DNA from: Sorghum bicolor
Lineage: Eukaryota; Streptophyta; Magnoliopsida; Poales; Poaceae
Assembly: GCF_000003195.3 (NCBI RefSeq)
Contig: NC_012876.2
Span: 45,751,276-45,815,275 of the forward strand
Reading direction: 5' to 3'
DNA length: 64,000 nt
Positions within the stretch are counted from its first letter, which is position 1; each line of letters begins with the position of its first letter. Both the position numbers and the translations under genes were made by a program. This document shows positions 10,501 through 58,300 of the stretch, one piece after another. Below the pieces are notes generated by a model. That model was given only the letters and a program-made list of their open reading frames with translations, was not told where the DNA came from and did no database searches.

Positions 10501-10753
10501 ATGGTATGACAAGAAAGTAAAGGCTAAGGGGTTTGCCGATGGGGACTTGGTATGGAAATTAATTTTACCAATCGGGACTAAAAGTTCGAAGTTTGGAAAG
10601 TGGTCTCCTAATTGGGAAGGTCCTTATCGGATAAGTCGATCGGCTCCTGGAAATGCCTATATTCTAGAAACTCTCGAAGGAGTTGAATTTCCCAGAGCAT
10701 TAAATGGCAAATATTTAAAGAAGTACTACCCCAGCATATGGGTCGATGCATAA
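7520..10753 (+). pseudogene. pol: Tat-1 pol: RT, RNase H, archaeal RNase H, integrase; three stops
   Basis: The frame opens at an ATG overlapping the gag-protease stop and runs to a TAA at 10751, with stops at 8477 (TAG), 9320 (TGA) and 9557 (TGA). RT: KKNGKLRVCIDFRNLN near 7915 and the catalytic YIDD at 8240-8251. The usual RNase H follows (8480-9030), with the connection YLSRRLIDAETRYS. A second, archaeal-type RNase H lies at 9070-9480 (FFDGS, NNQAEYQAL), the hallmark of the Tat lineage. Integrase: zinc HHCC near 9690-9815, then D (AIDLIG, 9880), D (TTDQGTMF, 10066), E (GQAEASN, 10170). The C-terminus after 10540 holds the GDLVWK motif. There is no chromodomain. The stops would end RT and both RNase H domains early, so the copy cannot make a full Pol. 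Confidence 0.93.
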
Positions 10754-29773: not shown

Positions 29774-29778
29774 CGCCG
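29774..29778 (+). repeat. Target site duplication of Tekay-1, left copy (cgccg)
   Basis: cgccg before TGTAACACC; repeated at 44309-44313 right after the 3' LTR. Removing the element and one copy restores the reading frame of the Tat-2 antisense gene. Confidence 0.97.
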
Positions 29779-32061
29779 TGTAACACCCTAGGTGTTAAGC
29801 ATGCACTTAGTCTCACCAAAGTCATGCATAAGCATTTCCATCAAGCATAAGCATCATGAGCATGACACTCCTTTCAAATTATGATTTTATGTGCTTCATT
29901 TTATGTGTTTTAAATATGTTAAAAATATGATACTTGCTTCTAAAATTGTGAAAAATTCAAATTAGGTTGATTTATGTGTGAGAAGAATTTAGAATATTTT
30001 TGTGAAATTTTTGGAGCTATGGAATTTGAGAAATGGAATTTATACAAAAATATCCAAAAAGAATTTAATTAAAACCTAGAACTGAGTTTTAACTTGTAAT
30101 TCAAATTCTGTTTGGAATTTGGTCTTGCTTGTTAAAGCAAAGTGGTAGAGTTTTTGTTTTGGAACAATTTTGTTTTTGGGAGCAAGAGGTGAAAATGATT
30201 TTTAATTGGTCCAAATGAATTTAGAAAGAATTTGGAGAAAAGAAATTTTCAAAAAAAAAAGAGAAAGGGGCAGGCGCTGCTGGGCCAACCCCGCTTCCCT
30301 TTCGGCCCAGCAAGCGACCCGGCCTGCCTCCCCTCTCCCTCTCCCTCCCGCGCGCGGACGCGCCTCGCTCCACCCGGCGCCGGCCACGTGGCGGCCGTAC
30401 GCCGGCGTTGGACGCGCCGCGGCCGGCCTCCAACCCCCCTGGTCGGGACGCCGGCGCTGGCTCCCAGACCACTCGCCCGTTCTGTCCCCCCCCCCGCGCC
30501 CTCCTTCTCCTTCCTCCTCCGCTCGAACCGCGCCGCAGCAGCCGCTCCTCCGCACGCCATTGCCGGAGAGAGCTCCGCCGCTCGTCGCCGGCCACACCAG
30601 AGCCTCAAGCTCGACTCCTAGAGCACCAGGGCACTCGCCGTCGCTAGGGTAAGCTCGTGCGAACGTTCTACCGAGGTGAGAGTCCGTCGAGCGCCGTGAA
30701 TCGCTCGCCGGAGTTACCCCGAGCTCGCCGGAGTACTCCGCCGCGGTGGATCTAGCGTTTCCCTGCGTCTTTTCGCTCGCTCTCTGTTGCGCTAGGTCGG
30801 TAGGAAGGTGAGGAAGCTCGGAGAGGCGTTTGCGCACGCTCTACCGCGCCGGAGCAGCCTGGCCACGGCGAGCAGCGCCGCTGTGCCGCCATGCATGCTC
30901 GCCGGAGGTGTTCCGGCCGTCCTCTGGTCGATCCAAGGGTACCGCTGGGTGCGTCTCGCTGCGGGGAGCACGTTGGTGCTCACCCCGTGGCCGGAGACCT
31001 CACCGCCGGCGAGATCCGCTCGTCGAAGGTGAGCTCCCTCTCGGTCTCACTGACTGGTGGGGTCGGGGACCCACTGTCAGTCGCAGGGGTACCGCAGTGG
31101 GTGTAGATCTGGGTGAGTGTAGCGTTTTTCGTTGGTTTTCTTGAAAAAGTGTTTTCCAGAAATTGATTTAAAGTTTGTAAAATCTATATCTTGAGTTCTA
31201 CAGCTCCAAATTGAATGAAATAAATTTTGGTGTGTTCTATATTTCCAGATCTACAGTTTGATGTAATTGCATGTCATGTTGGAGCAACTTTTCTGTGTAA
31301 ATATATTTTATCCATGATTTTGTTAAACTTGGAAAATGCATAGTAAATGGAATATGGCTCAGAAAAATGTGAAACTTGTTTTGCTGGCTCTGCATGTGTG
31401 TTTACTCACTGAGAAAATATTGTTACATATTATTTGGTGTATAAATGAATTTATGGCAATTTAAATGCTTGCATGGCAGTGCTTTATGATTTTTTAATAA
31501 TTAAATGGGTCATGCAATAAATCTGGAAAATTTTGTGGGTATTTCTTATGATGTTAGATAAATTGTAAAAATATGAAATCTGTTGTTTGACACTTATATC
31601 ACAGTAGGGTGATTATACTTGCCTTATCCACTAATCTTGTGATTTTTGTGGCTCAAAATAAGTAACCAAAAATTATGAAAAATTTACAGTAGACTTTATG
31701 ATTAACTAGTAGTCTCCTGTAATTTTTCTGGAATTTATGGATGAACAGAATTGCATGTGATTTTTTTATGGGCTTAGAAATGAATAAAGAAAATTTTGAA
31801 TGGTTGTGTATGTGGGTTGAATGGACTAAGTTGGGTTTGGTGTATCTTTGAAGCATCATGTAGGTTGCTGATGTCATTTGAAAAATAATTATAGAAGAGA
31901 ATGTAATAGATGTTTGATTCAATTGTTTATTCTTGGATGATGTTGACTACCTTGTAGTAAGCATGACCAAGTACATTACCTATGCATCATAACATGACTC
32001 CTTTGGTACTCTCTCATATAAGCATCCACTCGGGCATCCCGCACTCCACTCATGAGCATAT

Positions 32062-32286
32062 ATGCATCATACAGGCTCGCAGGAGAACGAGGTGGGAACC
32101 GAGGAACCCGAGGAGCTTCAGGAGCAGGAACCTCCGGAAGCACAAGAGCCCGGAGAGGAACTGCAAGAGTGTCCGGATCAACGACCCAGCACGTTTGAGA
32201 AAGGCAAGCCCCGGAGCATTCTAAGTCTCCCTATTCTCGCTAACTTATATAAAGTGCTATACTTATTCTACTATATTGCATATTAA
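32062..32286 (+). other. Small acidic ORF in Tekay-1 LTR
   Basis: 74 codons, strongly acidic in the first half (EEPEELQEQEPPEAQEPGEE), ending KGKPRSILSLP and a hydrophobic Tyr-rich tail. The acidic part starts at an AG that could be a 3' splice site. The KGKPRSILSLP block is kept in the diverged LTR at 1224-1490. The TATA box of the LTR overlaps the last codons, so a transcript starting there would not contain the ORF; read-in or an upstream start would be needed. A second copy lies at 42663-42887. Confidence 0.35.
32246..32253 (+). promoter_or_regulatory. TATA box of Tekay-1 LTR
   Basis: TATATAAA, about 1.45 kb before the LTR end; repeated in the 3' LTR at 42847-42854. Candidate core promoter. 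A second promoter near the GC-rich block cannot be excluded. Confidence 0.5.
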
Positions 32287-33709
32287 GTGATAGGAGTTGC
32301 CTGATACCGTTGCTGCATATGTACTCCTTGTTATCCCTACTCGTTACCTACCTTGTCCTATGTAGATAGGCGCGGAGTCTATGCTTAGCTTGCTTAGTCC
32401 GGTAGAAGTCGGGTGATGTCCTGTCACCTGCGAGATATAGGTGGATACCTGCTTGATTAAGCAGTGGTTGCTGGGGAAAGAAATAACCAAGTGTGGAAAG
32501 TAATTGGAGACCGGGCAGGGTCTTATAGTGGGTTGCCCATAGTGCCCCTGCCTGTGTCGATTAAGGACCGATCGTTGACGGCCCTCTTGTCATGTTGAAC
32601 GCATGCCCCACACTTAGCTGGAAGGATAAGTCGTTCCGACCGCGAAGCCTGAACACTATCCGGGCCGGGAATCGAGCCGCCATGCGCTGTATTGGTGGTG
32701 GTTGAGGAGAACGACGAGGGCGCGGCGCGCAACCTTGGTATACCTTGGATACCTCGGTCGCCGGAACGGTCCTCGGGTACTGGCGGTGCCTGCCGAACCC
32801 GCGAATTGGTCCTGGATAGTGTAATACGGTGATCTGTAGCTCACTTGATCAGTGAGTGTGGTTTGTGTGGGGAATACCTCGCTAGCTGGTTAGAAATCGA
32901 TTCGAATCGCCATCGCTCCTGGATAGTGAGCACTTGACATGAGCCCTGTCCTCGTAGTAAGGACTATGGAACACTTGGGTTTTAATGAAACGGGTTTATG
33001 ACTGCTGTGATGAGGTACTATCATAGTCTCATACTTGCTTGTAATAGCACAGGAGCAAACCTAGATAATAGATAATGATACTTTCAACTTGAGCAGATTA
33101 AAAGAAGAAAAGATTTATGTAGGTTCGGGTAATAAAACCTTGCGGTATTTGCAAAATGGTTGTCAGCTACCCCACTAAATAGCCTTCATGATCCTTGATG
33201 AGTCTTTATTTTAAGTTTATGACGGGTAAGTCTAGCTGAGTACCTTCTTGTACTCAGGGTGCTATTCCCATGTTGTTTTGCAGATGGTCAAATGTACTAT
33301 GGTTATTGCATCCTCTGTCTGTACCCAACTATGGGGGATGACTAGACCAAGGGCAATGGTCACTCCGTCTCTTCTTTTGCTTTTGTGGGAATGACCGAAC
33401 TATGGCACTGTATCAGACTTATCGTGTGTGTTGTAATTTCAAACTATGAAACTTCCGCTACTTGAAGAACTTGGTTTGTAATAACTTTAAGCACTCCGAT
33501 GTAATTTATGAATGTTGTAATCTGGATGTGCTTGTGGATGGCGACCGCTAAACTTATTACGATCTTGGCTGTATATGCGATGTGTGGTTTGAAATCCTGC
33601 GAGATTTCACGGACTACCGGGATTATATGGGCTTAAGCGTGATAGTTCGACTATGCAAATGGTCACTATTAGGCTTAATCTCTTATAATTTGGTCGGTTC
33701 TGTTACAGC

Positions 33710-33721
33710 TGGTATCGGAGC
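33710..33721 (+). other. Primer binding site of Tekay-1
   Basis: TGGTATCGGAGC, 2 bp after the LTR. It matches the initiator tRNA-Met complement with one change (A to G at position 8). Confidence 0.85.
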
Positions 33722-34526
33722 AAGGTTTAGCGAGTTACTGTTCATAAGTACATTCTAAACAAAAGTCTAAACCGGTTTAATGAAGGATTTTAGTAATTAA
33801 TAAAGATCAAGGTGTTAAACTAAGTTTTGGAAAACTATCTAGTGTGCCATGGTCATATCCTTTATGCCCAGTTAAGGACTCTAAGGTGGCTAGCTAAGTA
33901 CTGACTTGGGGGTTGATGCATCATATTTTTATTTCTCGCTCATACGGCGTGCAATAGTATGAGTGCCATTCAATTGAGTGGTAATGTATGGATCAATTCT
34001 TCCTCTACGCCATGGTAAGTGGGAGTTGTGAGAGCATGATCGGATACACTACCGGTCTAGGGAAGTGTTGTCAGGTGCTGTGTCATGCACACATGTTGGT
34101 GTGTCTTGGGAACAGTACCGCATGCTGGGAATTCCGTCCTGAGAGGCGATGCCGTCAATAGGGCGATGATGTGGGTAGTGGCACGTCACATGCATGGACG
34201 GGTGTCTGTGTATGTGAAGTGCATGGTTTTAAATTCTTGCTCTGCATGATCATATTGTGGGTGGGCTGAAATGAGTTTTCTGCAGGTACACTAACCACGT
34301 TCTCGCTTAGAACGCTAGTTACGTTATGAGAGAACGTTGTGTGCCACCGCATATACCGCTTAGTGTTAACCTTTGTTTCAAAGTTTGTGAGATCGTAAGT
34401 TCGTGCATGCATCATGTTCATTTCATATCATTGCTTACTTTCCCCCTTAATTTAATCTGTCCCAATTCTAAATAAAATAATTAAAGGTAATCCTCGCTCT
34501 TACCCACGGTATTCCAATTGCAGCAG
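33722..34526 (+). other. Tekay-1 leader with candidate splice sites
   Basis: No gene. A consensus donor ATG|GTAAGT lies at 34014/34015. Acceptor-like gcag sequences end directly or 3 nt before the ATG of orf0 (34523) and directly before the ATG of gag (35894). Alternative use of these would give separate mRNAs for orf0 and gag-pol. Confidence 0.4.
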
Positions 34527-35570
34527 ATGGCACGCACTAGGCTCACCGCTCGCAAGTCCACTGGTGGGCGGGCCCCTCGCCATCCGTTGGCAGCTAGGAG
34601 CTCGTGACATAAGAGCAAGTTCCTAGAGGAGTTTGGGATGCCCACTTTGCTTTGGAGGGTGCTCAGTTCGATGGGGTATCCCGAAGGAAGGGAGCCTCGC
34701 TACTATTGGGCTAAGGAGCCGCTTGGTGACGAGACCCTGGTGGGGATTGAGGCAGTTGTCCCTACCAGTGGAGGAGACCCTGCTTGGGGCGGCTGGGTGT
34801 ACGAGTCCCGAGGTGTCACGCCTTTCCACAGTACCAGCAGGGCAGCTTTCGCAGTTTTGAGGGACCTCATGGAGAGGTTTCCACAGGAGCTGGCCCACGC
34901 CTTCGCTGGGGTGTTTCCCCGGGGTGACCCTTACACTTCGGTGTGGGGTCAGTCCGAGGTGAATGCTCTAGAGAGGAGTGCGGATGAGGACCAGCACAGT
35001 GACAGTGCAGCTATGAGTGCCATGTACGCGTTGATGAAGACCTATGGAGGCCTGGAGCGTTGTTTGGGTCGCTTGTCCGGGTCTCTTCTCACCGTCCAGG
35101 ATGAGAAGCGTCAGTTGCAGCGTGAGTTTGACTCTGAGGTTGAGAGGCTACAGGCAGAGTTGGCTCGTGTGACCAGAGAGAGGGACCAGGCAGTCCAGAA
35201 GAACAGTGAGCTGAGTCAGGACCTGCTTGCAGTACGGGAGCAGAAGGACAGGGTGACTACTGCTCACAGGAACTGCGAGCGCATGCTAGTCCATGTGCTT
35301 GGACAGAGGAATGAAGCCTGGCACGAGGAGGACACTTTGAGGGCCCGACAGCTAGAGCTAGAGCAGCAGCTAGCTAATGCCGAGGAGTACAATGAGAACT
35401 TGCATGAGGAGATTCACCAGCTGCATAACCAGCTCCACCCTCACCACCTACCTGGAGCCGCGGAGCTAGACTCTGAGGACGAGATGGACGCGGATCCCGA
35501 GATAGGAGCAGCTGCTAGTGGTGACGAGGATGAGGATGGCTCTGGCATGGACAGTGACCACAGCGAGTAG
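34527..35570 (+). pseudogene. Tekay-1 orf0: histone-H3-tail-like N-terminus plus coiled coil (one nonsense codon)
   Basis: One frame of 348 codons from the ATG at 34527 to the TAG at 35568, broken only by a TGA at 34605 (codon 27). The protein starts [20 protein letters not shown]. Histone H3, after its initiator Met, starts [20 protein letters not shown]. Of those 20 H3 positions, 15 of the 19 that can be compared over residues 2-20 are matched or nearly so, including the unbroken ARKSTGG around K9 and S10; K4, K14 and K18 are Arg, Arg and His. Codons 38-150 form a Trp/Gly-rich region, codons 190-310 a coiled coil (QRELELEQQ-type heptads), and the C-terminus is very acidic. Extra ORFs upstream of gag are known from grass relatives (RIRE3/RIRE8 orf0); their function is not known. 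The element is otherwise young, so the stop looks recent. Confidence 0.8.
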
Positions 35571-35894
35571 ATGCTAGGGCTCTAGAGCTAGTCTTCCCTC
35601 TTTTGTGATGTATGTTGCGTGGCATGTCATGTACTTTTGGATCTGGGCTGTGTAAGACTTTATGAGTTGATACTGAAAGTCCAGTGTATGTATGCTGGCA
35701 AGTTGGATGTACGCGAACCTTGTTGCGTGAATGTTAAGTAATCTGTTAGTGATGTTGTGCGTGGATGATGAGTTGTTGTGCCTTTGTTTATTGTGTGAAT
35801 TTATTCCCTCAGTAAATTCAGTATGGCACAATTTTACACATTTTCTACCGGTTGATGGCAACTCCTAACGATTGCTTATCATTGGCATATGCAG
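35571..35894. other. Spacer between orf0 and gag in Tekay-1
   Basis: 324 bp, AT-rich, no gene. It ends in catatgcag directly before the gag ATG at 35895, which resembles a 3' splice site. Confidence 0.5.
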
Positions 35895-38800
35895 ATGGTG
35901 CAAACACGTGGCGGGGGTAGCAGCAATCCGGGCCTTGGAACAGGTACATCCGGAGGTGGGTCTCAACGGATTGAGGACAGAGCACCAACACCGCCACCAC
36001 CACCGCCTCCCCCGTACACTGCGGATGTGTTTTTCGCGCAGTTTCTAGGAAGCCAACGCAACATGGAACAGATGCAGCGCAACATGGAAGAAGCTTTGCG
36101 CAACATAGCTGACAACACCCGTCGTGGAGATAATCAGGGTGGTCGGGAGGTCAACCAGTACAGTTCGTTCAAGGACTTCATGGATACCAAGCCACCAATC
36201 TTTAAGGAGGCCTTGGAACCGCTCGAGGCAGATGAATGGATCAATACCATGGAGCAGAAGTTTCGTCTTCTCCGAATGACAGAAGAACTCAAGGCTGAAT
36301 ATGCGGCACATCAGTTGCAAGGACCCGCTGGGATTTGGTGGTCCCATCACCGTACCACCTACCCAGAGGGGACACCAATCACCTGGAACCGCTTCACCAC
36401 CGCTTTCCGGGGAAATTACATTCCTCCTGGTGTGTTTGAAATGAAGGTTGGGGAGTTCATGAGGCTGTCCTAGGGGACGAAATCTGTGAAAGAGTATCTA
36501 CATGCCTTCAATAATCTCGCTCGATATGCCCCTGAGTTTGTAAACACGGAGGCCAAGAAGATTGCCAGTTTCCAGAGAGGCTTGAATCCAAAGATGCTGA
36601 AGACCATGGGTACAGGGGCCAGGGCTACTTTCAATGCCTACATCAGTGACTGTCTGACCCAAGAGAACAATAACAACAACTACAGTGCATCCAAGTCACG
36701 TAAAAGGGCTTTTGAAGCTGGATCATCCCAGTCCAGGGCACCCGTGACAGGGCGACAGCAGTATCGTCCCCCTGCCCCAGGTGCTAGGTTCCGACCGCCG
36801 CAGAGAAGGAACACCGGACATCCAACACAGCAGAAGCCGTACAAGGTGGCGATAGCTCCTGCCAAGCCAAAGGCAATTCAAGCTGCAGCACCTGCCGCCA
36901 ACAATGCGCCCAAGGGTCCATGCTATAACTGCCACAAGATGGGGCACTTTGCTAAGGAATGTCCCTACCCCAAGAGGCAGCAGCCAACATATCCAGCTCG
37001 TGTGCATCATACCTCGATTGAGGAAATCCCGGAAGGAGAACCGGTAACAGCTGGTATGTTTTCTGTCAACCAACATCTTGCAGTTGTTTTGTTTGATTCT
37101 GGATCGTCGCATTCATTCATGAGCCAAGCATTTGCACAAAAGCATAATCAACCAGTTACAGATCTGGGCTATGGCTACCGCATCAGCTCAGCAGGGGCAG
37201 ATGTGTTGACCAATAGAGTGGTCCGAGGGGCAACCCTGGATGTAAGTGGCCGAGTTTTTCGGATAAATCTAGTGGTCATGCCTGGGTTAGTTTTGGATGT
37301 TATCATGGGCATGAACTGGATGAGAGAATGGGATGCGATCATAGATACTGGGAAGAGGATGTTATCCCTCAGAGAACCACAGGGCAGTGACTCTTTTCAA
37401 GTACCTCTGCCCCGTCGTCTTGACTTTGCTAACATCTCCTGTGCTACGCACGTGGTCCCTTTACCACAGATCCCAGTAGTCTGTGAGTTTCCCGATGTGT
37501 TTCCCGAGGAGTTACCAGGACTTCCCCCAGATAGGGAGGTAGAGTTTACAATCGAGTTGATACCAGGTACAGCACCAATATCTAGAAGGCCGTACCGGAT
37601 GCCACCAAACGAACTCGCAGAATTGAAGAAACAACTGAAGGAGTTACTAGAAAAAGGGTTCATCCGGCCCAGCTCGTCGGAATGGGGTTGTCCAGCGTTG
37701 TTTGTGAAAAAGAAGGATCAGTCGTTGCGCATGTGCGTGGACTATCGTCCACTCAATGCAGTGACAATCAAAAATAAGTATCCCTTGCCAAGGATTGATA
37801 TCCTGTTTGATCAGTTATCCAAGGCAAGAGTGTTCTCTAAGATAGATTTGAGATCCGGGTATCACCAAATCAAGATTCGTCCGCAAGATATCCCGAAGAC
37901 TGCTTTTTCCACCAAATATGGGTTGTACGAGTATCTTGTCATGTCCTTTGGGTTGACAAATGCTCCTGCATACTTTATGTATCTGATGAATTCAGTCTTT
38001 ATGCCAGAATTGGATAAGTTTGTTGTGGTGTTTATCGATGATATCCTGGTGTATTCAGAAAATGAGCAAGATCACGCCGAACATCTGAGAATCGTGCTGA
38101 CACGATTACGAGAGCATCAGTTATATGCCAAGTTCAGCAAGTGTGAGTTCTGGTTGAAGAAAGTTCCGTTCCTAGGGCACATTTTGTCTGAAGAAGGGAT
38201 TGCCGTGGATCCATCAAAAGTGCAGGAAGTCATGGACTGGAAGGCACCAACTTCGGTCTCGGAAGTTAGAAGTTTTCTTGGTCTGGCCGGGTATTATCGT
38301 CGTTTTATACCTGACTTCTCCAAGATTGCTAAGCCAATGACAAGTTTGCTACAAAAGGATCATAAGTTCGTCTGGACGGAGGGGTGTGAGTTAGCCTTCC
38401 GCACCTTGCGAAAGTTGCTAACCACTGCTCCCGTTCTGGCACAACCTAATATAGAGAAGCCTTTTGATGTGTTTTGTGACGCATCGAAGAGTGGCCTGGG
38501 GTGTGTGTTGATGCAAGATGGCAGGGTGATAGCTTATGCTTCCCGACAGTTGAGGAAACATGAAGTCAACTATCCAACGCACGACCTTGAGTTAGCAGCT
38601 GTGGTGCATGCTTTGAAGATCTGGAGACATTATCTGCTAGGAAATAAGTGTCACATTTACACCGATCACAAGAGTTTGAAGTACATCTTCACGCAGTCCG
38701 AGCTGAATATGAGGCAACGACGGTGGTTAGAGCTAATCAAGGACTATGACCTGGAGGTTCACTATCATCCAGGCAAAGCTAATGTGGTCGCAGATGCTTT

Positions 38801-40367
38801 GAGTCGCAAACCGCACTATCAAATGGTTCAACCGTTGTTTGAAGATGGGTTCAATCTTATGCATCCTGAGGTCCTATGTCATATACAACTCAGTTGTTCA
38901 CTCGAGAGTCAAGTCATTGAAGGTCAGAAAGCAGACAAGGGTATTTTCCACATCAAAGAGAAGATCAAAGATGACCCAAAGACTCAGTTTCGGGTTGATG
39001 AGAAGGGAGTATTGTGGTTTCAACAGCGGTTAGTGGTCCCGAAAGATCGGGAGTTGAAGAATCGCATCATGGATGAAGCCCATCTCTCTAAGCTTTCTAT
39101 TCATCCTGGCAGCAGCAAAATGTATCAAGATCTAAGGCCCCACTTTTGGTGGACCAAGATGAAGAAAGAAATAGCAGCTTATGTGGCCCGTTGTGACACG
39201 TGTTGCAGAGTTAAGGCCATCCATATGAAACCTGCAGGTCTGTTGCAACCGTTATCAGTTCCGGAGTGGAAATGGGAAGAGGTCAGTATGGACTTTATCA
39301 CGGGTTTACCAACCACAAGGAAGGGGAATGACTCGATTTGGGTAATCATAGATCGATTGACCAAATCGGCCCATTTCATCCCTGTGAAGACTCGTTACCG
39401 ACCTCCTGAGTACGCCGATATATATATGGCTGAGATCGTCAGATTGCATGGTATTCCCAAAACTATCATATCGGATAGAGGACCGCAGTTCACTGCTCAC
39501 TTCTGGGAGCGCATGCATAAGAGCTTGGGGACCAGTCTGATAAGAAGCACAGCGTATCATCCCCAGACTTCAGGACAAACCGAGAGGTTAAATCAAGTGT
39601 TAGAAGATATGCTGAGAGCCTGTGTGCTATCATCCAAGGGATCATGGGAATCGTGGTTACCTTTGGCTGAATTCTCCTACAATAATAGTTATCAAGAGAG
39701 CATCAAGATGGCCCCGTTTGAAGCTTTGTATGGTCGAAGATGTCGAACTCCGTTAAACTGGGTTGAACCTGGTGAAAGAAGATACTATGGTATCGACTTT
39801 GTGAATGATGCCAAGAAAAAGGTGCAGATTATACAGCAACATATGCAAGCAGCGCAATCACGACAGAAGAGTTATGCTGATAAGAGAAGAAGGCCACTTG
39901 AATTCAACATAGGTGACTATGTGTACCTCAAGGTTACGCCAATGAAGAAAGTTCAACGTTTCCGAGTTCGAAGCAAGCTTGCACCCAGATATGTGGGACC
40001 GTACCAAGTGCTAGAGAGGAAAGGCCCAGTGGCCTATAAGATTCAGTTACCTGAAGAGATGAGCTCGATCTTTCCGGTCTTCCATGTGTCGCAACTATGG
40101 AAATGTTTAAAAGTGCCTGAGCAAAGAGTTGAACCTCGAGGGATCAAGATAAAAGCAGACCTAGAGTATAAGGAGCAGCCAGTGGGGATTGTGGATACCA
40201 AGGAGAGAATAACCCGAAACAAAGTTGTCAGAACTTATAAAGTGGTGTGGAGTCATCATGACGATAGGGACGCCACCTGGGAAACAGAGGATTACTTAAA
40301 AACAGTTTATCCAAAATTTCACAAGAAATGGTTAGTAACCCAAAATCTCGGGACGAGATTTCCCTAA
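35895..40367 (+). pseudogene. gag-pol: Tekay-1 gag-pol polyprotein with chromodomain, one nonsense codon
   Basis: A single frame from ATG 35895 (or 35889, two codons earlier) to the TAA at 40365, interrupted once by TAG at 36471 in the middle of the gag capsid domain. Gag has the retrotransposon gag fold region (36170-36640) and zinc knuckle [14 protein letters not shown] (36921-36962). Protease: DSGSS at 37095. [19 protein letters not shown] near 37710 and FIDD at 38031-38042. RNase [10 protein letters not shown] near 38475, [10 protein letters not shown] near 38660. Integrase: HHCC near 39105-39215, catalytic D 39290, D 39467 (ISDRGPQF), E 39583 (SGQTERLN). The chromodomain lies at about 40150-40330 ([16 protein letters not shown]) and may steer integration to marked chromatin. 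I chose 35895 because an acceptor-like gcag abuts it. All catalytic motifs I looked for are present, so only the stop disables it. Confidence 0.95.
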
Positions 40368-40379
40368 GGGGGGAAGGGC
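40366..40379 (+). other. Polypurine tract of Tekay-1
   Basis: AAGGGGGGAAGGGC directly before the 3' LTR; plus-strand primer. Confidence 0.88.
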
Positions 40380-43300
40380 TGTAACACCCTAGGTGTTAAG
40401 CATGCACTTAGTCTCACCAAAGTCATGCATAAGCATTTCCATCAAGCATAAGCATCATGAGCATGACACTCCTTTCAAATTATGATTTTATGTGCTTCAT
40501 TTTATGTGTTTTAAATATGTTAAAAATATGATACTTGCTTCTAAAATTGTGAAAAATTCAAATTAGGTTGATTTATGTGTGAGAAGAATTTAGAATATTT
40601 TTGTGAAATTTTTGGAGCTATGGAATTTGAGAAATGGAATTTATACAAAAATATCCAAAAAGAATTTAATTAAAACCTAGAACTGAGTTTTAACTTGTAA
40701 TTCAAATTCTGTTTGGAATTTGGTCTTGCTTGTTAAAGCAAAGTGGTAGAGTTTTTGTTTTGGAACAATTTTGTTTTTGGGAGCAAGAGGTGAAAATGAT
40801 TTTTAATTGGTCCAAATGAATTTAGAAAGAATTTGGAGAAAAGAAATTTTCAAAAAAAAAAAGAGAAAGGGGCAGGCGCTGCTGGGCCAACCCCGCTTCC
40901 CTTTCGGCCCAGCAAGCGACCCGGCCTGCCTCCCCTCTCCCTCTCCCTGCCGCGCGCGGACGCGCCTCGCTCCACCCGGCGCCGGCCACGTGGCGGCCGT
41001 ACGCCGGCGTTGGACGCGCCGCGGCCGGCCTCCAACCCCCCTGGTCGGGACGCCGGCGCTGGCTCCCAGACCACTCGCCCGTTCTGTCCCCCCCCCCGTG
41101 CCCTCCTTCTCCTTCCTCCTCCGCTCGAACCGCGCCGCAGCAGCTGCTCCTCCGCACGCCATTGCCGGAGAGAGCTCCGCCGCTCGTCGCCGGCCACACC
41201 AGAGCCTCAAGCTCGACGCCGAGAGCACCAGGGCACTCGCCGTCGCTAGGGTAAGCTCGTGCGAACGTTCTACCGAGGTGAGAGTCCGTCGAGCGCCGTG
41301 AATCGCTCGTCGGAGTTACCCCGAGCTCGCCGGAGTACTCCGCCGCGGTGGATCTAGCGTTTCCCTGCGTCTTTTCGCTCGCTCTCTGTTGCGCTAGGTC
41401 GGTAGGAAGGTGAGGAAGCTCGGAGAGGCGTTTGCGCACGCTCTACCGCGCCGGAGCAGCCTGGCCACGGCGAGCAGCGCCGCCGTGCCGCCATGCATGC
41501 TCGCCGGAGGTGTTCCGGCCGTCCTCTGGTCGATCCAAGGGTACCGCTGGGTGCGTCTCGCTGCGGGGAGCACGTTGGTGCTCACCCCGTGGCCGGAGAC
41601 CTCACCGCCGGCGAGATCCGCTCGTCGGAGGTGAGCTCCCTCTCGGTCTCACTGACTGGTGGGGTCGGGGACCCACTGTCAGTCGCAGGGGTACCGCAGT
41701 GGGTGTAGATCTGGGTGAGCGTAGCGTTTTTCGTTGGTTTTCTTGAAAAAGTGTTTTCCAGAAATTGATTTAAAGTTTGTAAAATCTATATCTTGAATTC
41801 TACAGCTCCAAATTGAATGAAATAAATTTTGGTGTGTTCTATATTTCCAGATCTACAGTTTGATGTAATTGCATGTCATGTTGGAGCAACTTTTCTGTGT
41901 AAATATATTTTATCCATGATTTTGTTAAACTTGGAAAATGCATAGTAAATGGAATATGGCTCAGAAAAATGTGAAACTTGTTTTGCTGGCTCTGCATGTG
42001 TGTTTACTCACTGAGAAAATATTGTTACATATTATTTGGTGTATAAATGAATTTATGGCAATTTAAATGCTTGCATGGCAGTGCTTTATGATTTTTAATA
42101 ATTAAATGGGTCATGCAATAAATCTGGAAAATTTTGTGGGTATTTCTTATGATGTTAGATAAATTGTAAAAATATGAAATCTGTTGTTTGACACTTATAT
42201 CACAGTAGGGTGATTATACTTGCCTTATCCACTAATCTTGTGATTTTTGTGCCTCAAAATAAGTAACCAAAAATTATGAAAAATTTACAGTAGACTTTAT
42301 GATTAACTAGTAGTCTCCTATAATTTTTCTGGAATTTATTGATGAACAGAATTGCATGTGATTTTTTTATGGGCTTAGAAATGAATAAAGAAAATTTTGA
42401 ATGGTTGTGTATGTGGGTTGAATGGACTAAGTTGGGTTTGGTGTATCTTTGAAGCATCATGTAGGTTGCTGATGTCATTTGAAAAATAATTATAGAAGAG
42501 AATGTAATAGATGTTTGATTCAATTGTTTATTCTTGGATGATGTTGACTACCTTGTAGTAAGCATGACCAAGTACATTACCTATGCATCATAACATGACT
42601 CCTTTGGTACTCTCTCATATAAGCATCCACTCGGGCATCCCGCACTCCACTCATGAGCATATATGCATCATACAGGCTCGCAGGAGAACGAGGTGGGAAC
42701 CGAGGAACCCGAGGAGCTTCAGGAGCAGGAACCTCCGGAAGCACAAGAGCCCGGAGAGGAACTGCAAGAGTGTCCGGATCACCGACCCAGCACGTTTGAG
42801 AAAGGCAAGCCCCGGAGCATTCTAAGTCTCCCTATTCTCGCTAACTTATATAAAGTGCTATACTTATTCTACTATATTGCATATTAAGTGATAGGAGTTG
42901 CCTGATACCGTTGCTGCATATGTACTCCTTGTTATCCCTACTCGTTACCTACCTTGTCCTATGTAGATAGGCGCGGAGTCTATGCTTAGCTTGCTTAGTC
43001 CGGTAGAAGTCGGGTGATGTCCTGTCACCTGCGAGATATAGGTGGATACCTGCTTGATTAAGCAGTGGTTGCTGGGAAAAGAAATAACCAAGTGTGGAAA
43101 GTAATTGGAGACCGGGCAGGGTCTTATGGTGGGTTGCCCATAGTGCCCCTGCCTGTGTCGATTAAGGACCGATCGTTGACGGCCCTCTTGTCATGTTGAA
43201 CGCATGCCCCACACTTAGCTGGAAGGATAAGTCGTTCCGACCGCGAAGCCTGAACACTATCCGGGTCGGGAATCGAGCCGCCATGCGCTGTATTGGTGGT

Positions 43301-44308
43301 GGTTGAGGAGAACGACGAGGGCGCGGCGCGCAACCTTGGTATACCTTGGATACCTCGGTCGCCGGAACGGTCCTCGGGTACTGGCGGTGCCTGCCGAACC
43401 CGCGAATTGGTCCTGGATAGTGTAATATGGTGATCTGTAGCTCACTTGATCAGTGAGTGTGGTTTGTGTGGGGAATACCTCGCCAGCTGGTTAGAAATCG
43501 ATTCGAATCGCCATCGCTCCTGGATAGTGAGCACTTGACATGAGCCCTGTCCTCGTAGTAAGGACTATGGAACACTTGGGTTTTAATGAAACGGGTTTAT
43601 GACTGCTGTGATGAGGTACTATCATAGTCTCATACTTGCTTGTAATAGCACAGGAGCAAACCTAGATAATAGATAATGATACTTTCAACTTGAGCAGATT
43701 AAAAGAAGAAAAGATTTATGTAGGTTCGGGTAATAAAACCTTGCGGTCTTTGCAAAATGGTTGTCAGCTACCCCACTAAATAGCCTTCATGATCCTTGAT
43801 GAGTCTTTATTTTAAGTTTATGATGGGTAAGTCTAGCTGAGTACCTTCTTGTACTCAGGGTGCTATTCCCATGTTGTTTTGCAGATGGTCAAATGTACTA
43901 TGGTTATTGCATCCTCTGTCTGTACCCAGCTATGGGGGATGACTAGACCAAGGGCAATGGTCACTCCGTCTCTTCTTTTGCTTTTGTGGGAATGACCGAA
44001 CTATGGCACTGTATCAGACTTATCGTGTGTGTTGTAATTTCAAACTATGAAACTTCCGCTACTTGAAGAACTTGGTTTGTAATAACTTTAAGCACTCCGA
44101 TGTAATTTATGAATGTTGTAATCTGGATGTGCTTGTGGATGGCGACCGCTAAACTTATTACGATCTTGGCTGTATATGCGATGTGTGGTTTGAAATCCTG
44201 CGAGATTTCACGGACTACCGGGATTATATGGGCTTAAGCGTGATAGTTCGACTATGCAAATGGTCACTATTAGGCTTAATCTCTTATAATTTGGTCGGTT
44301 CTGTTACA
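40380..44308 (+). repeat. Tekay-1 3' LTR
   Basis: 3,929 bp, the same length as the 5' LTR and about 99.4% identical by eye. G-box at 40986-40993; second copy of the acidic ORF at 42663-42887. Confidence 0.97.
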
Positions 44309-45385
44309 CGCCGGTCCAAATCCAGGCAGAGGGGAGAGCCTGAGGAAGAGTCCCCCAGCGAGAAAGATGACGATGATGACGAGGACAGTGAGGACTCCGA
44401 GGGGATGGCGTCTCGTCTTGACCGGATCCTCGGGGGTCCATCTCAAGGCGACGTCGACGCTCCTCGGGCGGAAGCTCCGACGGGGGGGCCCAGGCGGATC
44501 CCACCGTCCTCGCGCCGATACCCCTCCCGCGCCCAAGGTCAGTCAAGTCGCGCCGCGCCCTCCCCCGGCGCTCAGGGAGAGTGGTCATGCCAGGCCCCAA
44601 GCGACGGGGCCACTGACCCGCGGTCGCGCAGCGGCCTCCGAGAAAGGAGAGGTCGGCCGCAGGAGTGCCAGTCCCGGCGTCCGCCAGGCGGGAACTGACG
44701 CACCTAGGCCAGCGCCTGCCCTCGAGGGGCCTGGAGCCCTGACGCGGGGAGGCTCGAGGCCCGCCGGTCGGGGCGGAGGGAGGCGAGCGGTTCTCCCTGT
44801 GGGGTAAGCCTTCTCGATGCTGTGGCTTTTGTCTTTCTACTCCCCTGCGTTTCCTCATATGTCGTTCTTTTCTCAGGCTAAAGCGGACCCTCGAGCAGGC
44901 CCAGCCGTCCATGGCGAAGAGGCTCAAAACGGGAGCCGTCTCCGAGGAACCAGGTTTGTAGTTTATTTCTGGGCCTTGCGATGTTCTTGTGTCGGTTATT
45001 ATAACGTCTGACCCTTATCCTTTGTTTTGTAGGCTCCTCCAGTTCCCAACCTCCAGCCGGCGTCGAGAGGGCTCCGTCTCGTCCCGCGCCTATTCCGTCG
45101 CCGCCGACTTGTGATGAGGCGCCCCGGACGCAAGCGTCAGAGGGAGCCCCCGAGTCCCCTCGATTGGGGGTCGAGGGGGAACCCATCACCATCAGCGATA
45201 CGTCGGATGGTAACGAAGCGTCTGCGGGTTTCCGCCCTATGGAGGGGGAAATGTCGACCCCTCACGTCGCAGGATCGACTCCCTGGCCCGCCAGCCTCCG
45301 TACCCTCGAGGAGCAGAAGAAGAAGAGGGAGGAGGATGAACAGCGGGAGCACGAGGCGGCGCGGCAGCCGCAGGAGCATGAGGCG

Positions 45386-45487: not shown

Positions 45488-45880
45488 GGGCGCCAAGGGG
45501 AGGGACTGCTCGAACCCCCGCCCCAAGGTCCGGCTCAGCCGGCGCCGCCGGAGCCGCAAGAGCCCGGTGAGCAAGAAGAGGATCTGCCGGTGTACGGCCC
45601 CCCGACCCCAGCATGGCTCCTCCTGGGGGCACCTGCCGCGATCCGGGCAGAGCCGGGGCGAGCGGATGGAGTGGTGGCGCTCGCCTGCATGATGCGCACC
45701 CCCACCGACCCTGAGTCCGAGATCAAGCGGACGATCTATGGCATGGACGGGATCGCCCTAGGGTTCCTCCGGGAGCGTCGGGCATGGGAGGACCGCTTTC
45801 CCTCCGAGGAGGATGAAATCGGGACGTCAGGGACCAAGGACGATACCTGGAAGACGGTGGACGACGACGGGCGGTTCCCA

Positions 45881-48800
45881 TGCCGTTGTCGGTGATGATG
45901 ACGTTCGGAATCCCAAACCGATGAATGATGTCGGTGAAGAAAAGGACGGCTTGCTCGGAGCGGATGTTGGTGATGGGTCGAGCCTCGATCCATTTGGAGA
46001 ACTTGTCAATGGCCACCAGCAAGTGGGTGTACCCTCCTTTCGCCTTTTGTAGAGGTCCTACTAAATCGAGCCCCCATACCGCAAACGGCCAGGTGATGGG
46101 GATCATCTGAAGAGCGTGGGCGGGCAGATGCGTCTGCTTGGCGTAGAACTGGCACCCGTGACACGAGCGTACGAGCTCGATGGCATCTGCCACGGCCGTC
46201 GGCCAGTAGAAACCTTGTCGAAAAGCGTTCCCTACGAGGGTCCGTGGAGTAGCATGGTGGCCGCAAGCCCCCGAGTGCAGGTCCTCGAGGAGTTTTCGGC
46301 CTTCTTCCACGGTGATGCAACGCTGTAAGACCCCCGTCGGGCTTCGTCGATATAGTTCATTGTATTTGCCATAGATCATGTATGACTTGGCTCGTCGAGC
46401 GATACGCCGGGCCTCTGACCGATCTTCCGGCAGTTCGCCGTTGATTAGGCAGTCGAGGAATGGTGTGCGCCAGTCGAACGGTCGACCGGATCGCTGTTCC
46501 ACCTCCATCACCTCTGCTGAGGTCAGCAGCGTGTCGACGTAGTCGGTTGGCTGGGCGGGAGTGGCGTCGACGCCAGCCCCCGAGCCCAAGTCGACGGATG
46601 GCTCGTGGAGATCTCTTGAGAGCGCGTCAGGTGGTACCGTGCCTCGGGTCGACGCGATTTTTGCGAGTTCGTCAGCTGCTTCGTTGTAGCGTCGGGCGAT
46701 GTGCACGAGCTCGAGGCCATGGAACTTGTCCTCGAGTCGACGGACTTCTTTACAGTACGCCTCCATTTTCGGGTCGTGGCAGCTCGAGGTTTTCATTACT
46801 TGGTCGATGACGAGTTGGGAGTCACCTCGGACGTCGAGGCGTCGGACTCCTAGCTCGATGGCAATCTTGAGACCGTTGATGAGGGCCTCGTATTCCGCAA
46901 CGTTGTTGGATGCGGCAAAGTGAATCCTGATGACATACCTCATATGGACGCCCAAGGGTGAGACGAACAACAGACCAGCCCTGGCCCCCGTTTTCATGAG
47001 TGACCCGTCGAAATACATCGTCTACAGTTCCGCCTGGACCTGGGTCGGGGGGAGCTGGGAGTCTGTCCATTCTGCGATGAAGTCCACCAGGGCTTGCAAT
47101 TTGATGGCCTTGCGAGGCGCGTAAGTGAGAGTCTCACTCATGAGTTCGACTGACCACTTAGCTATTCTTCCCGTGGCCTCCTTGCTCCGGATTATCTCGC
47201 CCAAAGGGAAAGACGAGACCACCGTGATGGGGTGGCCGAGAAAGTAATGCTGCAGCTTGCGACGGGCAAGGATTACGGCGTAGATCAGCTTCTGGATTTG
47301 GGGGTAACACGCCTTGGTCTCCGAAAGCACCTCGCTGACGAAATAGACTGGCCTTTGGACCGGCAGCGCATGACCCTCCTCCTATCTTTCAACCACCACC
47401 GCCGCACTGACGACCTGGGTCGTCGATGCGACGTAGAGGAGTAGCGGCTCTGCAGGTTGAGGTGAGACCAGGACTGGTGCCGAGGTCAGCGTCTTCTTCA
47501 GTCTTTCGAGCGCTTCCTCGGCCTCGGGGGTCCAAGAAAAGCGCTCGACCTTTTTCAGGAGTCGATACAATGGTAACGCCTTTTCTCCTAGTCTCGAGAT
47601 GAAACGGCTCAGAGCCGCCAGGCATCCCGTGACTCTATGCACACCCTTGATGTCTCGGATCGGCCCCATTCTTGTGATGGCCGAGACTTTCTCGGGGTTG
47701 GCCTCGATGCCGCGCTGCGAAACGATGTATCCTAGGAGCATGCCTCAAGGCACACCGAAAACGCATTTCTCGGGATTGAGCTTGATCTGGTTGGTGCGTA
47801 AGTAGCTAAAAGCGATCTCGAGGTCCTGGATCAGGTCCCCTCGCCGTTTTGACTTGACGACAATGTCGTCGACGTAGGCCTCGACCGTTGACCCTATGTG
47901 TTTGCCAAATACGTGGAGCATGCAACGTTGGTACGTGGCTCCCGCGTTTCGAAGCCCAAATGGCATGGTCACGTAGCAATACATCCCAAAAGGTGTGATG
48001 AAAGAGGTCGCGAGCTGGTCGGACTCCTTCATTTTTATTTGGTGGTAACCAGAATACGCATCAAGGAAAGAAAGGGTTTCACATCCCGCGGTAGAATCGA
48101 CAATCTGATCAATACGTGGCAATGGAAAGGGAACTTTTGGACATGCTTTATTTAGACTAGTATAATCGACACACATCCTCATTTTCCCATTCTTTTTCTT
48201 AACTAATACAGGGTTTGCTAACCAGTCGGGATGATGAACCTCCTTGATGAATCCGGCCGTCAAAAGCTTGTGGACTTCCTCGCCAATGATCTTGCGCTTC
48301 TCCTCGTCGAATCGGCGCAACCGCTGCTTCACTCGCTTGGAACCGGCTCGAATCTCCAAGGAATGCTCGGCGACTTCCCTCAGTATGCCTGGCATGTCCG
48401 AGGGACTCCATGCAAACATGTCGGCGTTTGCACGGAGAAAGTCAACGAGCACAGCTTCCTATTTGGGGTCGAGATCGGCGCTGATCGTCAGCACCTTGCC
48501 GTCGGAGTTGTTGGGGTCGAGTGGGATCTTCTTGGTTCCTTCTGCCGCCTCGAAGCTGCCCGCGTGGCGCTTGGGCTCTGGAGCCTCGGCGGCCAGGGCC
48601 TCGAGCTTCGCGACGAGCTCGGTGGAGTTTTCGACCGCCTCCCCATATTCGACGCACTCGACGTCGCACTCGTACGCATGCTCAAAAGAGGAGTTGACGG
48701 TGATGACGCCTTTGGGACCTGGCATCTTCAGCTTCAAGTAGGTGTAGTTGGGTATAGCCATGAACTTGGCGTAGCCCGAGCGTCCGATGATGGCGTGGTA

Positions 48801-50375
48801 CGTGCCTCGGAATCCAACTACTTCAAAGGTGAGGGTCTCCTTCCTGAAGTTGGCCGCTGTGCCAAAGCAGACCGGTAAGTCGATTCGACCTACTGGCAGC
48901 GCCTTTTTTCCTGGTACGACGCCATGAAAACCGCCGGCGCTTGGTTGGAGCTTTCCTCTATCTATGCCGAGGAGGTCGAGGGTCTCCAGGTAGATGATGT
49001 TGAGGCTGCTGCCACCGTCCATCAGCACCTTTGAGAGCCGGGTGTTGACGATGATAGGGTCGACGACGAGCGGGTAGACGCCTGGGGCGACTACCTTGTC
49101 GGGGTGGTCCTCTCGATCGAAAGTGATGGGGGTGCTCGACCAGCTAAGGTACTGGAGCACCGCCATTCTTGCCGTGAAGACCTCACGACATTCCCTTTTG
49201 CGCTGCCTCGTGGTTAACTGAGTCGAGGGCCCCCCATAGATCATGTAGCAGTCGTGGACGGCGGGGAAGCCGTCGTCGTTCTTGTCGCCCTCTTTGTCAC
49301 CGCCCTTGTCCTTCTTCGAGTCATCACGCTCATCCCTTTTGAGCTCTAGACTGTCGAAATGCCTTTTCAGCATTCGACATTCCTTGAGCTTGTGGTTGGC
49401 GCCTCCCTTATGGTAAGGGCACGGTTCTTCGAGCATCTTGTCGAAGATACCTCCATCTGGAGGGCCTCTAGGCTTCTTCCGCTCCATGGCGGCGACGAGA
49501 TCGTTGTCGAAGTTCTCCTGCTTGTACTGCCGCACTTTCAGCTTCTTCCTGTTCTTCTTGAGCCCTCGACTGGGGGTTCCATCTTCATCGACAGGCCGCT
49601 TGCCTTTCCACCCTTCACAGCTGAAGAAGGCGCCGACTGCCTCCTCTCCCGCCGCGTAGTTTGCTACTAAGTCCATCAGCTCATCGACGGTCTGAGGGCG
49701 ATTTCGGCCCAGTTCTCGCACTAAGTCTCGACTGGTGGTACCAGAGACAAAAGCCAGGATGACGTCATGGTCAGGGATGTGCGGAAGCTCAGTGCGCTGC
49801 TTCGAGAAGCGTCGAGCATACTCTCGAAGAGTTTCTCCTGACTTCTGCTTGCATTTGCTAAGGTCCCACGAGTTCCCGGGCTGTATGTAGGTCCCTTTGA
49901 AATTTCCCTCGAAGACTTTGACCAAATCGACCCAGTCGTGAATTTGATTTGCTGGAAGTTCCTCGAGCCATCGACGGGCAGTGTCGGAGAGGAAGAGCGG
50001 TAGTTGTCTGATGATGGCTCGATCATCCCCTCGAGCGCCACATAGCTGGCAGGCCAACCTAAAATCAGCCAACCATAATTCTGGTTTGGTCTCTCCATTA
50101 TATTTCGCGATGCTGGTCGGGGGTCGGAATGGACTGGGCAGGGGCGTGATGCGGATCGCCCTGCTGCTCGGGGGCCACCCGGTCCTCGTCGCTGTCGTAC
50201 CTCCCACCGCGATGCGCGCTGTAACCGCGCTCTTCCGCATCTCCGTGCCAGCGGCGTCGATTTTCTTCGATGTCATGCCGTGTGTCGTGTCGACGCTGAT
50301 TGTCGACGGGGAGAACAAGAGTGGCCTTTCTGCCTCGAGGTGGAGGCTGTTGATGGACTGATACCTCCTTTTCAT
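45881..50375 (-). pseudogene. gag-pol: Tat-2 gag-protease-pol, four in-frame stops, integrase truncated
   Basis: One frame from about 50375 to the deletion point near 45881, interrupted by TAG 48459, TGA 47745, TAG 47382 and TAG 47022. Gag capsid region 50100-49640 (WLADFRLACQLCGA, TARRWLEELP). A zinc-binding CPYHKGGANHKLKECRML lies near 49430-49375. Protease: VLMDGGSSLNII near 49030-48996. RT: VLVKKKNGKMRMCVDYTSLN near 48200 and YVDD near 47870. RNase H: 47640-47100. A second, archaeal-type RNase H at 47020-46640 (YFDGS, AEYEAL, GDSQLV, AADELA, all four acidic residues present). Integrase: HHCC 46330-46110, first D (GLDLVGP), second D (IITDNG), then it breaks off, so the catalytic Glu is missing. 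The N-terminal part of gag upstream of 50375 lies in other frames. Confidence 0.9.
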
Positions 50376-55354: not shown

Positions 55355-58300
55355 TTAATGTGAGAATTCTATGAACTCAATCACATCAAGTTCCTCTACC
55401 AGGTTGTTTTGTGGCTCGAGATAGATTTTCAAGCGTTGACCATTTACCTTAAAAGTGTTACCTAGGTCGTCTTGGATGGTAATGGCTCCATGAGTTGAAG
55501 TGTCAATAACCTTGTATGGTCCATCCCACTTACTTCGTAGCTTACCATGCCCAAAGAGCTTAACTCTTGAATTGAATAGTAGAACCTTATCTCCAGGCTT
55601 AAACTCCTTGTGCTTGATTCTCTTATCATGCCATCGTTTTGTTCTCTCTTTATAGATCCTTGAATTTTGGTAGGCTTTCTCTCTCCATTCTTCTAGCTCA
55701 GATAGTTGCATCAGACGATTCTCACTAGCGAGGTGGAGATCCATGTTCCATTTCTTGAGTGCCCAATGAGCCTTAAACTCTACTTCCACAGGCAAGTGAC
55801 AAGTTTTTCCATATACAAGTTGATAAGGTGACATGCCTATGGGTGTTTTGAATGCAGTTCTATATGCCCAAAGTGCATCAGGAAGTTTGTCCTTCCACCC
55901 CTTACCCATCTCATCTACGGTCTTTTGTAAAATATTTTTGATTTGATTGTTAGATGTTTCGGCTTGACCGCTAGTCTGAGGATGGTATGGTGTTGCGACG
56001 TTGTGTCGAACTCCATGATCGGCTAGGTACTTCCGGAAGATTTTGTCGATGAAGTGGGAAACTCCATCGCTTATAACTATCCGGGGTATACCAAAGCGAG
56101 GAAAGATTACTTCATGGAACATTCTCTTGGCATGTTTTGAATCAGCTGATCGACAAGGTAGGGCTTCTACCCATTTGGACACGTAGTCCACAGCTACTAA
56201 GATATACTCGCAATTCCCGGACATAGGGAATGGTCCCATGAAATCAATGCCCCATACATCGAAAAGTTCTACTTGAAGATTATTTGTGAGAGGCATTTCA
56301 TTTCGTGAGTTGATATTCCCATGTTTTTGACATCGGTGGCATCTCTTGACAAAGTCCTTTGTATCTTCATACATCGTTGGCCAGAAAAAGCCACTTTGCC
56401 AAATTTTAGCATGTGTTCGAAATGCTCCATAGTGTCCTCCATATGGCGAGGCATGGCATCTTTCCATAATTTGAGTAGCCTCAGCCATAGGAACACACCT
56501 TCTCAAGAGTCCATCAGCGCAGACTCGGAAAAGATATGGCTCATCCCAAAGGTGGAAACGACTATCGTGAAGCAACTTCCTTTTGTTTGCACCAGGTGGG
56601 ACATAGCCTTTTACTATAAAGTTTACGATGTCTGCGTACCATGGATCTGCATGTGTTATCTTAAGTAGGGTGTCATCCCTTAGGTAGTCATTTATGGGAA
56701 GCTCATCATGTGTTTCCTTATATTGAAGCCTAGATAAGTGGTCGGCTACGGAATTCTCTACTCCCTTCCTATCTCGGATTTCTATGTCAAAGTCTTGGAG
56801 TAGAAGAATCCATCGAATTAGACGAGGCTTAGCATCTTTCTTAGTGAGGAGGTACTTGAGAGCAGCATGATGTGAATAGATGATTATCTTTGCCCCCACT
56901 AAGTAAGATCTAAACTTGTCTATAGCAAAGACAACAGCCAAAAGCTCTTTTTCAGTTGTAGTGTAATTGAGCTGTGGTCCAGACAAGGTTTTGCTAGCGT
57001 AGGATATGGCATAATGCTTTTTATCCTTGGTTTGTCCTAAAACGGCACCAACCGCAAAATCGCTAGCATCACACATGATCTCAAAAGGAAGATTCCAATC
57101 AGGTGGTTGGATGATTGGGGCCGAGATGAGTGCTTTCTTAAGAGTTTGAAAAGATTCATGACACTCATCACTAAAGATGAAAGGTGCATCCTTAGCTAGG
57201 AGACTAGTTAGGGGTCTAGCAATTTGAGAGAAGTTCTTGATAAAGCGTCTATAGAACCCTGCATGTCCCAAAAAGCTACGGATTCCTTTCACATTCGTGG
57301 GAGGTGGAAGTTTTTCAATAACTTCAATCTTTGCTTTGTCCACCTCTATACCACGTTCGGATACTTTATGTCCTAGCACTATTCCTTCCTGAACCATAAA
57401 ATGGCATTTCTCCCAGTTCAGGATTAAGTGTTTTTCTTCACATTGCTGCAAGACTCTATCTAAATTCTCCAAACAATGATCAAAGGTTTTGCCATAGACG
57501 GTAAAATCATCCATGAAAACCTCCATGATCTTCTCAATCATGTCCGAGAAAATAGACATCATGCACCGTTGGAAAGAAGATGGAGCATTGCACAATCCGA
57601 ACGACATTCGTCGGTATGCATAAGTTCCATACGGGCATGTAAAGGTAGTCTTTTCTTGGTCATCTGGGTGGATTGGGATTTGGTGATATCCAGAATAACC
57701 ATCAAGGAAACAAAAGAAAGAGTGGTTTGCAAGCCGTTCCAACATTTCATCAATGAAGGGTAACGGAAAATGATCTTTCTTTGTAGCCTTATTGAGTTTT
57801 CGATAGTCAATACACATACGCCACCCAGTGACAATTCGTTGAGGGATGAGTTCATTCTTCTCATTCCTAACGACCGTCATTCCTCCTTTCTTTGGCACTA
57901 CTTGGACAGGGCTAACCCACTCACTATGTGGCACAGGATAAATAATCCCAGCACGATAGAGTTTGAGGACCTCTTTCTTAACAACCTCTCGCATAGCATT
58001 GTTAAGTCTCCGTTGTGGTTCAATTGAAGGTGTAGAATTGGGATCAATAGGGATACGATGAGTACAGAGAATGGGACTAATGCCCGTGAGATCTTCGAGA
58101 GAGTAGCCAAATGCTGATCTATGCCTTTCAAGAACAGTGATAAGTTGTTGTGTTTCATAATCGGAAAGCTTGTCACTGATAATTACTGGAGTTTTTGGGT
58201 TGTTGTGCAAAAAGACATATCTAAGGCCAGAAGGAAGAGGCTTTAGCTCTATTGAAGGAGGTGAAGGTTGTTCATTTTTGTCTAGCTCAACGGGTTCTAC

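Follow-up and report, generated by a model that had tools for sequence, protein, structure and literature searches.

What would a retrotransposon gain from a protein that begins like histone H3? The question is raised by orf0 (34527-35570), an open reading frame in the window, as we call the whole 64-kb stretch of Sorghum bicolor DNA analyzed here. Its translation opens with a near copy of the H3 tail in which 16 of 21 residues are identical to H3 1-21 (A1, R2, T3, T6, A7, R8, K9, S10, T11, G12, G13, A15, P16, R17, L20, and A21). Chance similarity was ruled out, as the next-best match to H3 1-21 in a six-frame scan of the window has 8 identities and the best scores of 300 shuffled H3 queries were 7 to 10. 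The window copy is interrupted by a premature stop at codon 27 (34605-34607, plus strand), so a copy with an open orf0 (L006) served as query. Residues 1-38 of this copy matched 132 PDB sequences at E<=10 with phmmer (best E 3e-6), and the best 60 of the 132 were H3 chains, H3 peptides, or H3-family proteins (Cse4 and a CENP-A chimera). Both the translation from 34527 given by an earlier sequence-only reading of this DNA and the H3-like start it described were therefore confirmed.

The tail belongs to a chromodomain Ty3/gypsy element that spans 29779-44308 of the window, with LTRs of 3929 bases each (Table 1). Domains follow the order PR-RT-RH-INT and then a chromodomain, as in chromoviruses; the name Tekay comes from the sequence-only reading, and the class used here rests on domain order and chromodomain type. 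The primer-binding site is presumably of the initiator-Met tRNA type. At a rate of 1.3e-8 substitutions per site and year, the LTR identity would place the insertion about 0.2 million years ago. Grass genomes contain Tekay-like elements in high copy number (PMC3350952).

Table 1 Features of the element that carries the H3-like tail, in window coordinates
Feature	Position	Strand	Basis or detail
Target-site duplication CGCCG, left	29774..29778	.	same 5 bases flank both LTRs
5' LTR	29779..33707	+	99.39% identical to 3' LTR over 3930 columns; ends TGTAAC...GTTACA
Primer-binding site TGGTATCGGAGC	33710..33721	+	just 3' of LTR
Leader with 24 upstream ATGs and donor-like GTAAGT at 34015-34020	33708..34526	+	ATGs counted from 33709
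Putative acceptor-like GCAGCAG abutting the orf0 ATG	34520..34526	+	copy comparison
orf0 start codon and H3-like tail (Met + residues 1-21)	34527..34592	+	translation, phmmer, H3 identity count, tally of copies and relatives
Predicted dsRBD-like domain (alpha-beta-beta-beta-alpha)	34647..34877	+	structure model
Long helix, predicted coiled coil	35007..35435	+	structure model
Acidic low-confidence C-terminus of orf0	35445..35567	+	ORF translation, structure model
gag start (ATG also at 35889) to in-frame stop in window copy	35895..36473	+	ORF list; stop at 36471-36473
Remainder of gag-pol: zinc knuckle, protease, RT, RNase H, integrase	36594..40367	+	Pfam
Integrase chromodomain, incomplete methyl-lysine cage	40206..40328	+	PF00385 E 0.008, 16.5 bits; PDB match E 3e-5
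Polypurine tract AAGGGGGGAAGGG	40366..40378	+	just 5' of 3' LTR
3' LTR	40380..44308	+	LTR alignment, ends
Target-site duplication CGCCG, right	44309..44313	.	same as left

Conservation of the tail was followed in 68 copies of the element (the window's own being L001), taken from the best 128 of 3282 candidate places in the genome, and in related proteins. The start was read in 27 of 28 cases; the exception, L021, lacked the exact start letters searched and was part of the later 68-copy projection. The search for relatives scored 7996 candidates, and the best 120 of 345 matches were used. From 126 related proteins, 21 were picked by at least 7 identities to H3 1-21 near the start. The lowest picked protein has 13 identities and the highest unpicked one 5, which means that the 21 were chosen by H3 similarity itself. 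The other 105 have 3-5 identities and by eye begin downstream, with P0042 beginning in other sequence; for the families P0005, P0009, P0019, and P0023 the database proteins start at an internal Met. Within these bounds the tail is present in all 21 relatives that extend to the N-terminus, and the relatives lacking an H3-like start that could have overturned the sequence-only reading did not appear among them. A region search based on residues 1-40 yielded 11 candidates with 1 protein among them and added nothing, and scans of viral contigs with the orf0 of L006 and with P0033 gave 5 and 20 pattern matches, respectively, and no confirmed relative.

K9 and S10 are each found in 89 of 89 tails (21 relatives and 68 copies), a count of related sequences rather than independent trials, with 18 of the 21 relatives belonging to one short type. 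The same holds for G13, P16, and L20 (89/89 each), followed by A7 (87/89) and R8 (85/89, missing in 4 of the 21 relatives). By eye the tails fall into about five lineages: the window family with P0101, P0080, the short form, P0040, and P0011, the last a 326-residue relative that keeps the tail and is 50% identical in the remainder of the protein. Lysine never occurs at K14, K18, or K23 (0/89), where R, H, Q, W, or C stands instead; Q5 is replaced in all 89 tails and T22 of H3 is not kept. In the window family 45 of the 68 copies have R at position 18 and the other 23 have H. Arginine occupies position 17 in 61 of the 68 copies and in only 13 of the 21 relatives, and part of its loss may be CpG decay. 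The sequence-only reading had taken both K4 and K14 to be lost. For K14 this stands, and K4 is R in 68 of 68 window-family copies, but 19 of 21 relatives keep K4, which rules out a general loss and limits it to the window family.

A tail conserved at this level could still be a decayed relic of the leader that is never translated. The 24 upstream ATGs make plain scanning to orf0 unlikely and, together with the stop at codon 27 of the window copy, speak for such a relic; that stop is, however, absent from 64 of the 68 copies (window copy counted), and a low-variation acceptor-like site ends at the orf0 ATG. Mean minor-allele frequency in the 68 copies is 0.009 at the donor-like and 0.004 at the acceptor-like site, against 0.026 over the 603 bases examined, the stretch before and at the orf0 ATG. 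Moreover, changes seen in at least 3 of the 68 copies of orf0 comprise 46 synonymous and 12 non-synonymous, compared with 74 and 71 for singletons (Fisher p 0.0002, with changes in exactly two copies excluded), and therefore the whole orf0 is under purifying selection. Together these observations leave an untranslated relic very improbable. They do not extend to ARKS itself, for which the sequence-only reading had proposed a test of purifying selection: K9 and S10 are invariant, but the shared changes within the tail number 2 synonymous and 3 non-synonymous, all three of the latter at positions 17-18, a count too small to show recent selection on the tail.

How the tail comes to be translated can be modeled simply. 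TTGCAGCAG lies directly 5' of the orf0 ATG and ATGCAG directly 5' of the gag ATG at 35895, with an acceptor-like GCAG there as at orf0. These splice-like sites suggest that alternative splicing may lead onto either the orf0 or the gag ATG. An upstream start codon, named in the sequence-only reading as a possible refutation, is lacking in the window copy, which has no in-frame ATG between the stop at 34488 and 34527; in 10 of the 21 relatives, though, an in-frame Met lies 12 residues ahead of the tail Met. This would bury the tail in those proteins unless splicing or initiation avoids it. The residues at that Met, MILPL...LLQ, would fit a translated pyrimidine tract plus CAG, as read from the proteins alone. 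From the tail Met, K9 sits in an A-R-K-S context near the N-terminus; we infer that the Met is removed, which would free the N-terminus and leave A1-R2-T3 as in H3.

The tail of L006 was compared with H3 genes of the same genome (11 of 12 fetched loci that show an H3 start, drawn from 60 histone matches). The tail differs from the 11 genes with pS 0.57-0.79 and pN 0.17-0.21, and the window tail shares 3-8 codons with them at the 16 identical residues. These values make it unlikely that an H3 exon was captured recently. L078, the closest gene, whose match fell in separate exons, shares 8 codons and has a pS of only 0.41 over T6-R17, and a donor of this kind is possible. The H3 genes among themselves reach a pS of 0.95 (mean 0.42); because of this spread and the low value for L078, pS dates the capture poorly. 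A match of such extent right at the start codon is most simply read as descent from an H3 gene, with convergence under selection as a possible alternative. The wide difference at silent sites beside few amino-acid changes suggests a tail that is old and constrained.

Such constraint bears on a more modest account, in which the tail is a mere basic extension from an H3 exon that serves nuclear targeting or nucleic-acid binding, with no role for K9. The tail is rich in R and K and a dsRBD-like fold is predicted in the same protein, as this account would have it. It would not lead one to expect S10, G13, P16, and L20 to be kept in 89 of 89 tails while R, H, Q, W, or C replaces K14, K18, and K23, nor a pN of 0.17-0.21 beside a pS of 0.57-0.79. 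We consider this account improbable.

Beyond the tail no histone fold was found in orf0, as the sequence-only reading held: the 10 families in the Pfam listing (E<=1) include no histone family, and the structure model contains a dsRBD-like fold and a long helix. The same reading described the rest as a coiled coil with an acidic end. Both are predicted here as well, but a dsRBD-like domain between the tail and the coiled coil had been overlooked. The model of orf0 has the alpha-beta-beta-beta-alpha arrangement of a dsRBD fold, and the same Pfam listing of 10 families includes no dsRBD family. Eighteen of the 21 relatives (P0026-P0038, P0040, P0041, and P0075-P0077, the last three assigned from their first residues only) are a short form, 52-63% identical over the matched part, which keeps the tail and coiled coil and lacks the dsRBD-like domain, so that tail and coil may work without it. 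Overall, orf0 could plausibly, if short of probably, serve grass Tekay-type elements as an accessory protein built of modules: an H3 tail mimic, a dsRBD-like domain, a long coiled coil, and an acidic end.

One candidate reader of the tail is encoded by the element itself. The sequence-only reading proposed that the orf0 tail recruits its own integrase, whose chromodomain would read the methylated tail and link the two proteins. That one element encodes both was borne out; the claim is weakened by the incomplete cage of the chromodomain. The window chromodomain, which scores 16.5 bits for PF00385 and lies below the curated cut-off of 25.1, keeps the W, has H in the place of Y48 (PDB alignments), and has E at Y24 (hand alignment only). 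It thus resembles the group II chromodomains, which lack Y24 and Y48, the Y24 part of this assignment resting on the hand alignment only. Most plant retrotransposon chromodomains are reported to lack these two cage residues, and in Tekay-like ones the chromo box retains only V43 and W45, of which W45 is all that is left of the cage (PMC3350952). A 2025 review describes group II chromodomains as lacking the aromatic residues and acting through mechanisms not yet known (PMC12786077). Because cage residues are missing, the integrase chromodomain is a weak candidate, and that it reads the methylated tail is the least probable of the explanations weighed here.

The incomplete cage also counts in favor of a tether, in which host heterochromatin readers would carry orf0-bound RNA, a particle, or the integrase to H3K9me2 chromatin via the methylated tail. 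The tail might then replace the binding lost by the cage-less chromodomain, which we hold as unlikely as the tether itself. The conserved K9 context suits this explanation too. So does the distribution of the element: 125 of the best 128 places lie on the ten chromosomes and lean to the middle, where the two central tenths hold 24 and 20 of them, compared with 7 and 4 in the end tenths. Against this, the 128 places are only the best-scoring ones, and gypsy elements as a rule concentrate in pericentromeric regions. In sunflower, moreover, the Tekay group that carries an extra ORF at its 5' end inserts in the chromosome arms and the groups without the ORF prefer pericentromeres, although the sunflower ORF is reported to have no amino-acid similarity to the grass ones (PMC11728184). 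Tethering is unlikely in our judgment, and it comes next after the reading that we favor first.

That reading, which we put forward tentatively, is that the orf0 tail is an H3K9 mimic acting as a decoy, one that would engage the H3K9 methylation loop without activating it. It takes up the other proposal of the sequence-only reading, competition for silencing writers or readers, which we prefer to recruitment of the integrase. Host SUVH-type enzymes would methylate K9 of the tail and the coiled coil would multimerize it. The tail could then occupy the H3K9me-reading and -writing proteins of the silencing loop (SUVH4/KYP, CMT3/ZMET2, AGDP1, and SHH1) without being a nucleosome, and silencing of the element's own chromatin would be weakened while the element is transcribed. 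The dsRBD-like domain may act in parallel on the small-RNA arm. An extended version, a two-armed suppressor in which a methylatable tail lacking K14, K18, and K23 jams the H3K9me2-CMT3 loop through non-activating binding and the dsRBD removes dsRNA or DCL/DRB partners, is somewhat unlikely as a whole.

The decoy can be compared with known contacts of the H3 tail. Maize ZMET2 (CMT3) binds H3 1-10 via its BAH domain and 14-23 along a methyltransferase loop, where K18 is recognized and R17, L20, and T22 touch the loop; mutation of the K18-binding residues of CMT3 largely abolished stimulation (PMC9256654). Within this footprint, most of 1-10 apart from Q5 is retained in the orf0 tails, as are L20 and, in most of them, R17; K18 never is, and T22 is not. 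The decoy is favored because the first-contact residues are mostly kept, with Q5 changed, and K18 is lacking; a tail of this kind is what a non-activating competitor for ZMET2 would be expected to look like. AGDP1 contacts A1, R2, K4, A7, R8, and K9me2 and makes no specific contact with T3, Q5, T6, or S10 (PMC6208443). AGDP1 alone fails to explain the pattern, because T3, T6, and S10 are kept though uncontacted. Counted against a decoy are the loss of T22, the loss of R8 in 4 of 21 relatives, and the partial retention of R17. H3 is also very abundant, and a decoy would therefore need a high local concentration.

The NS1 protein of influenza A carries an RNA-binding domain, and its histone mimic is short. 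It offers a parallel in that one protein likewise has a short H3-like tail, which is described in a review as interfering with readers of histone marks (PMC12937675). Its mimic is C-terminal (PMC12937675), whereas that of orf0 is N-terminal, about 21 residues long, and on a plant retrotransposon; unlike NS1, orf0 keeps the K9 context and lacks K14, K18, and K23. The geminivirus protein TrAP, a plant-virus protein that weakens H3K9me2 silencing through SUVH4/KYP, binds the KYP catalytic domain (PMC4606454), where orf0 instead copies the H3 tail. As a precedent for a viral KYP inhibitor it was counted for the decoy. Human EHMT1/2 substrates carry ARKS-type motifs in non-histone proteins, which has been called histone mimicry (PMC10611923). 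These are short linear motifs in host proteins, in contrast to the transposon tail, which reproduces a longer part of the H3 N-terminus and includes the start codon.

Extra ORFs are known from grass elements of the Tekay type. ORF0s of Retrosat2, RIRE3, RIRE8, Sorsat2, and ZMsat2 occupy the same place, between the 5' LTR and gag of long-LTR elements (PMC3485330), as does orf0; the likeness drawn here to the ORF0 of Retrosat2, RIRE3, RIRE8, and Sorsat2 is one of position and description. Metabolic enzymes were proposed for ORF0 (Gao et al., PMC3485330), and for the maize and sorghum forms structural similarity to a DRBM-containing protein was reported in a 2024 sunflower paper (PMC11728184). 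Neither PMC3485330 nor PMC11728184 has the word "histone" in its main text (0 occurrences each). A look-up of terms in PMC11728184, PMC3485330, PMC12786077, and PMC13317346 brought up no plant retrotransposon protein with an H3 tail, and no earlier description was found in the open-access literature, which was covered mostly as titles and the starts of abstracts. Histone mimicry and extra ORFs are both already known; within this coverage, their combination in a plant retrotransposon protein appears to be new.

The conserved tail gives an extra protein without an agreed function a set of concrete partners to consider, namely H3K9 methyltransferases, CMT3, AGDP1, and SHH1. If the decoy reading is correct, orf0 would give a plant retrotransposon its own histone mimic, and the transposon would be imitating the chromatin mark used against it. 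The tails would also amount to a natural experiment on which H3 tail residues matter, with K9 and S10 kept and K14, K18, and K23 discarded.

Other repeats surround the element in the window. The pair 26659-27667/51792-52799 (97.3% identical), with coding sequence at 45723-50375 on the minus strand, probably represents the LTRs of a minus-strand gypsy element that hosts the H3-tail element. Another LTR element is probably marked by the pair 52800-54138/59953-61291 (98.1% identical), which lies around a 1488-aa minus-strand polyprotein ORF (55355-59821). A further pair, 3174-3892/14094-14812 (98.1% identical), lies around gag-pol-like ORFs at 4995-10753.
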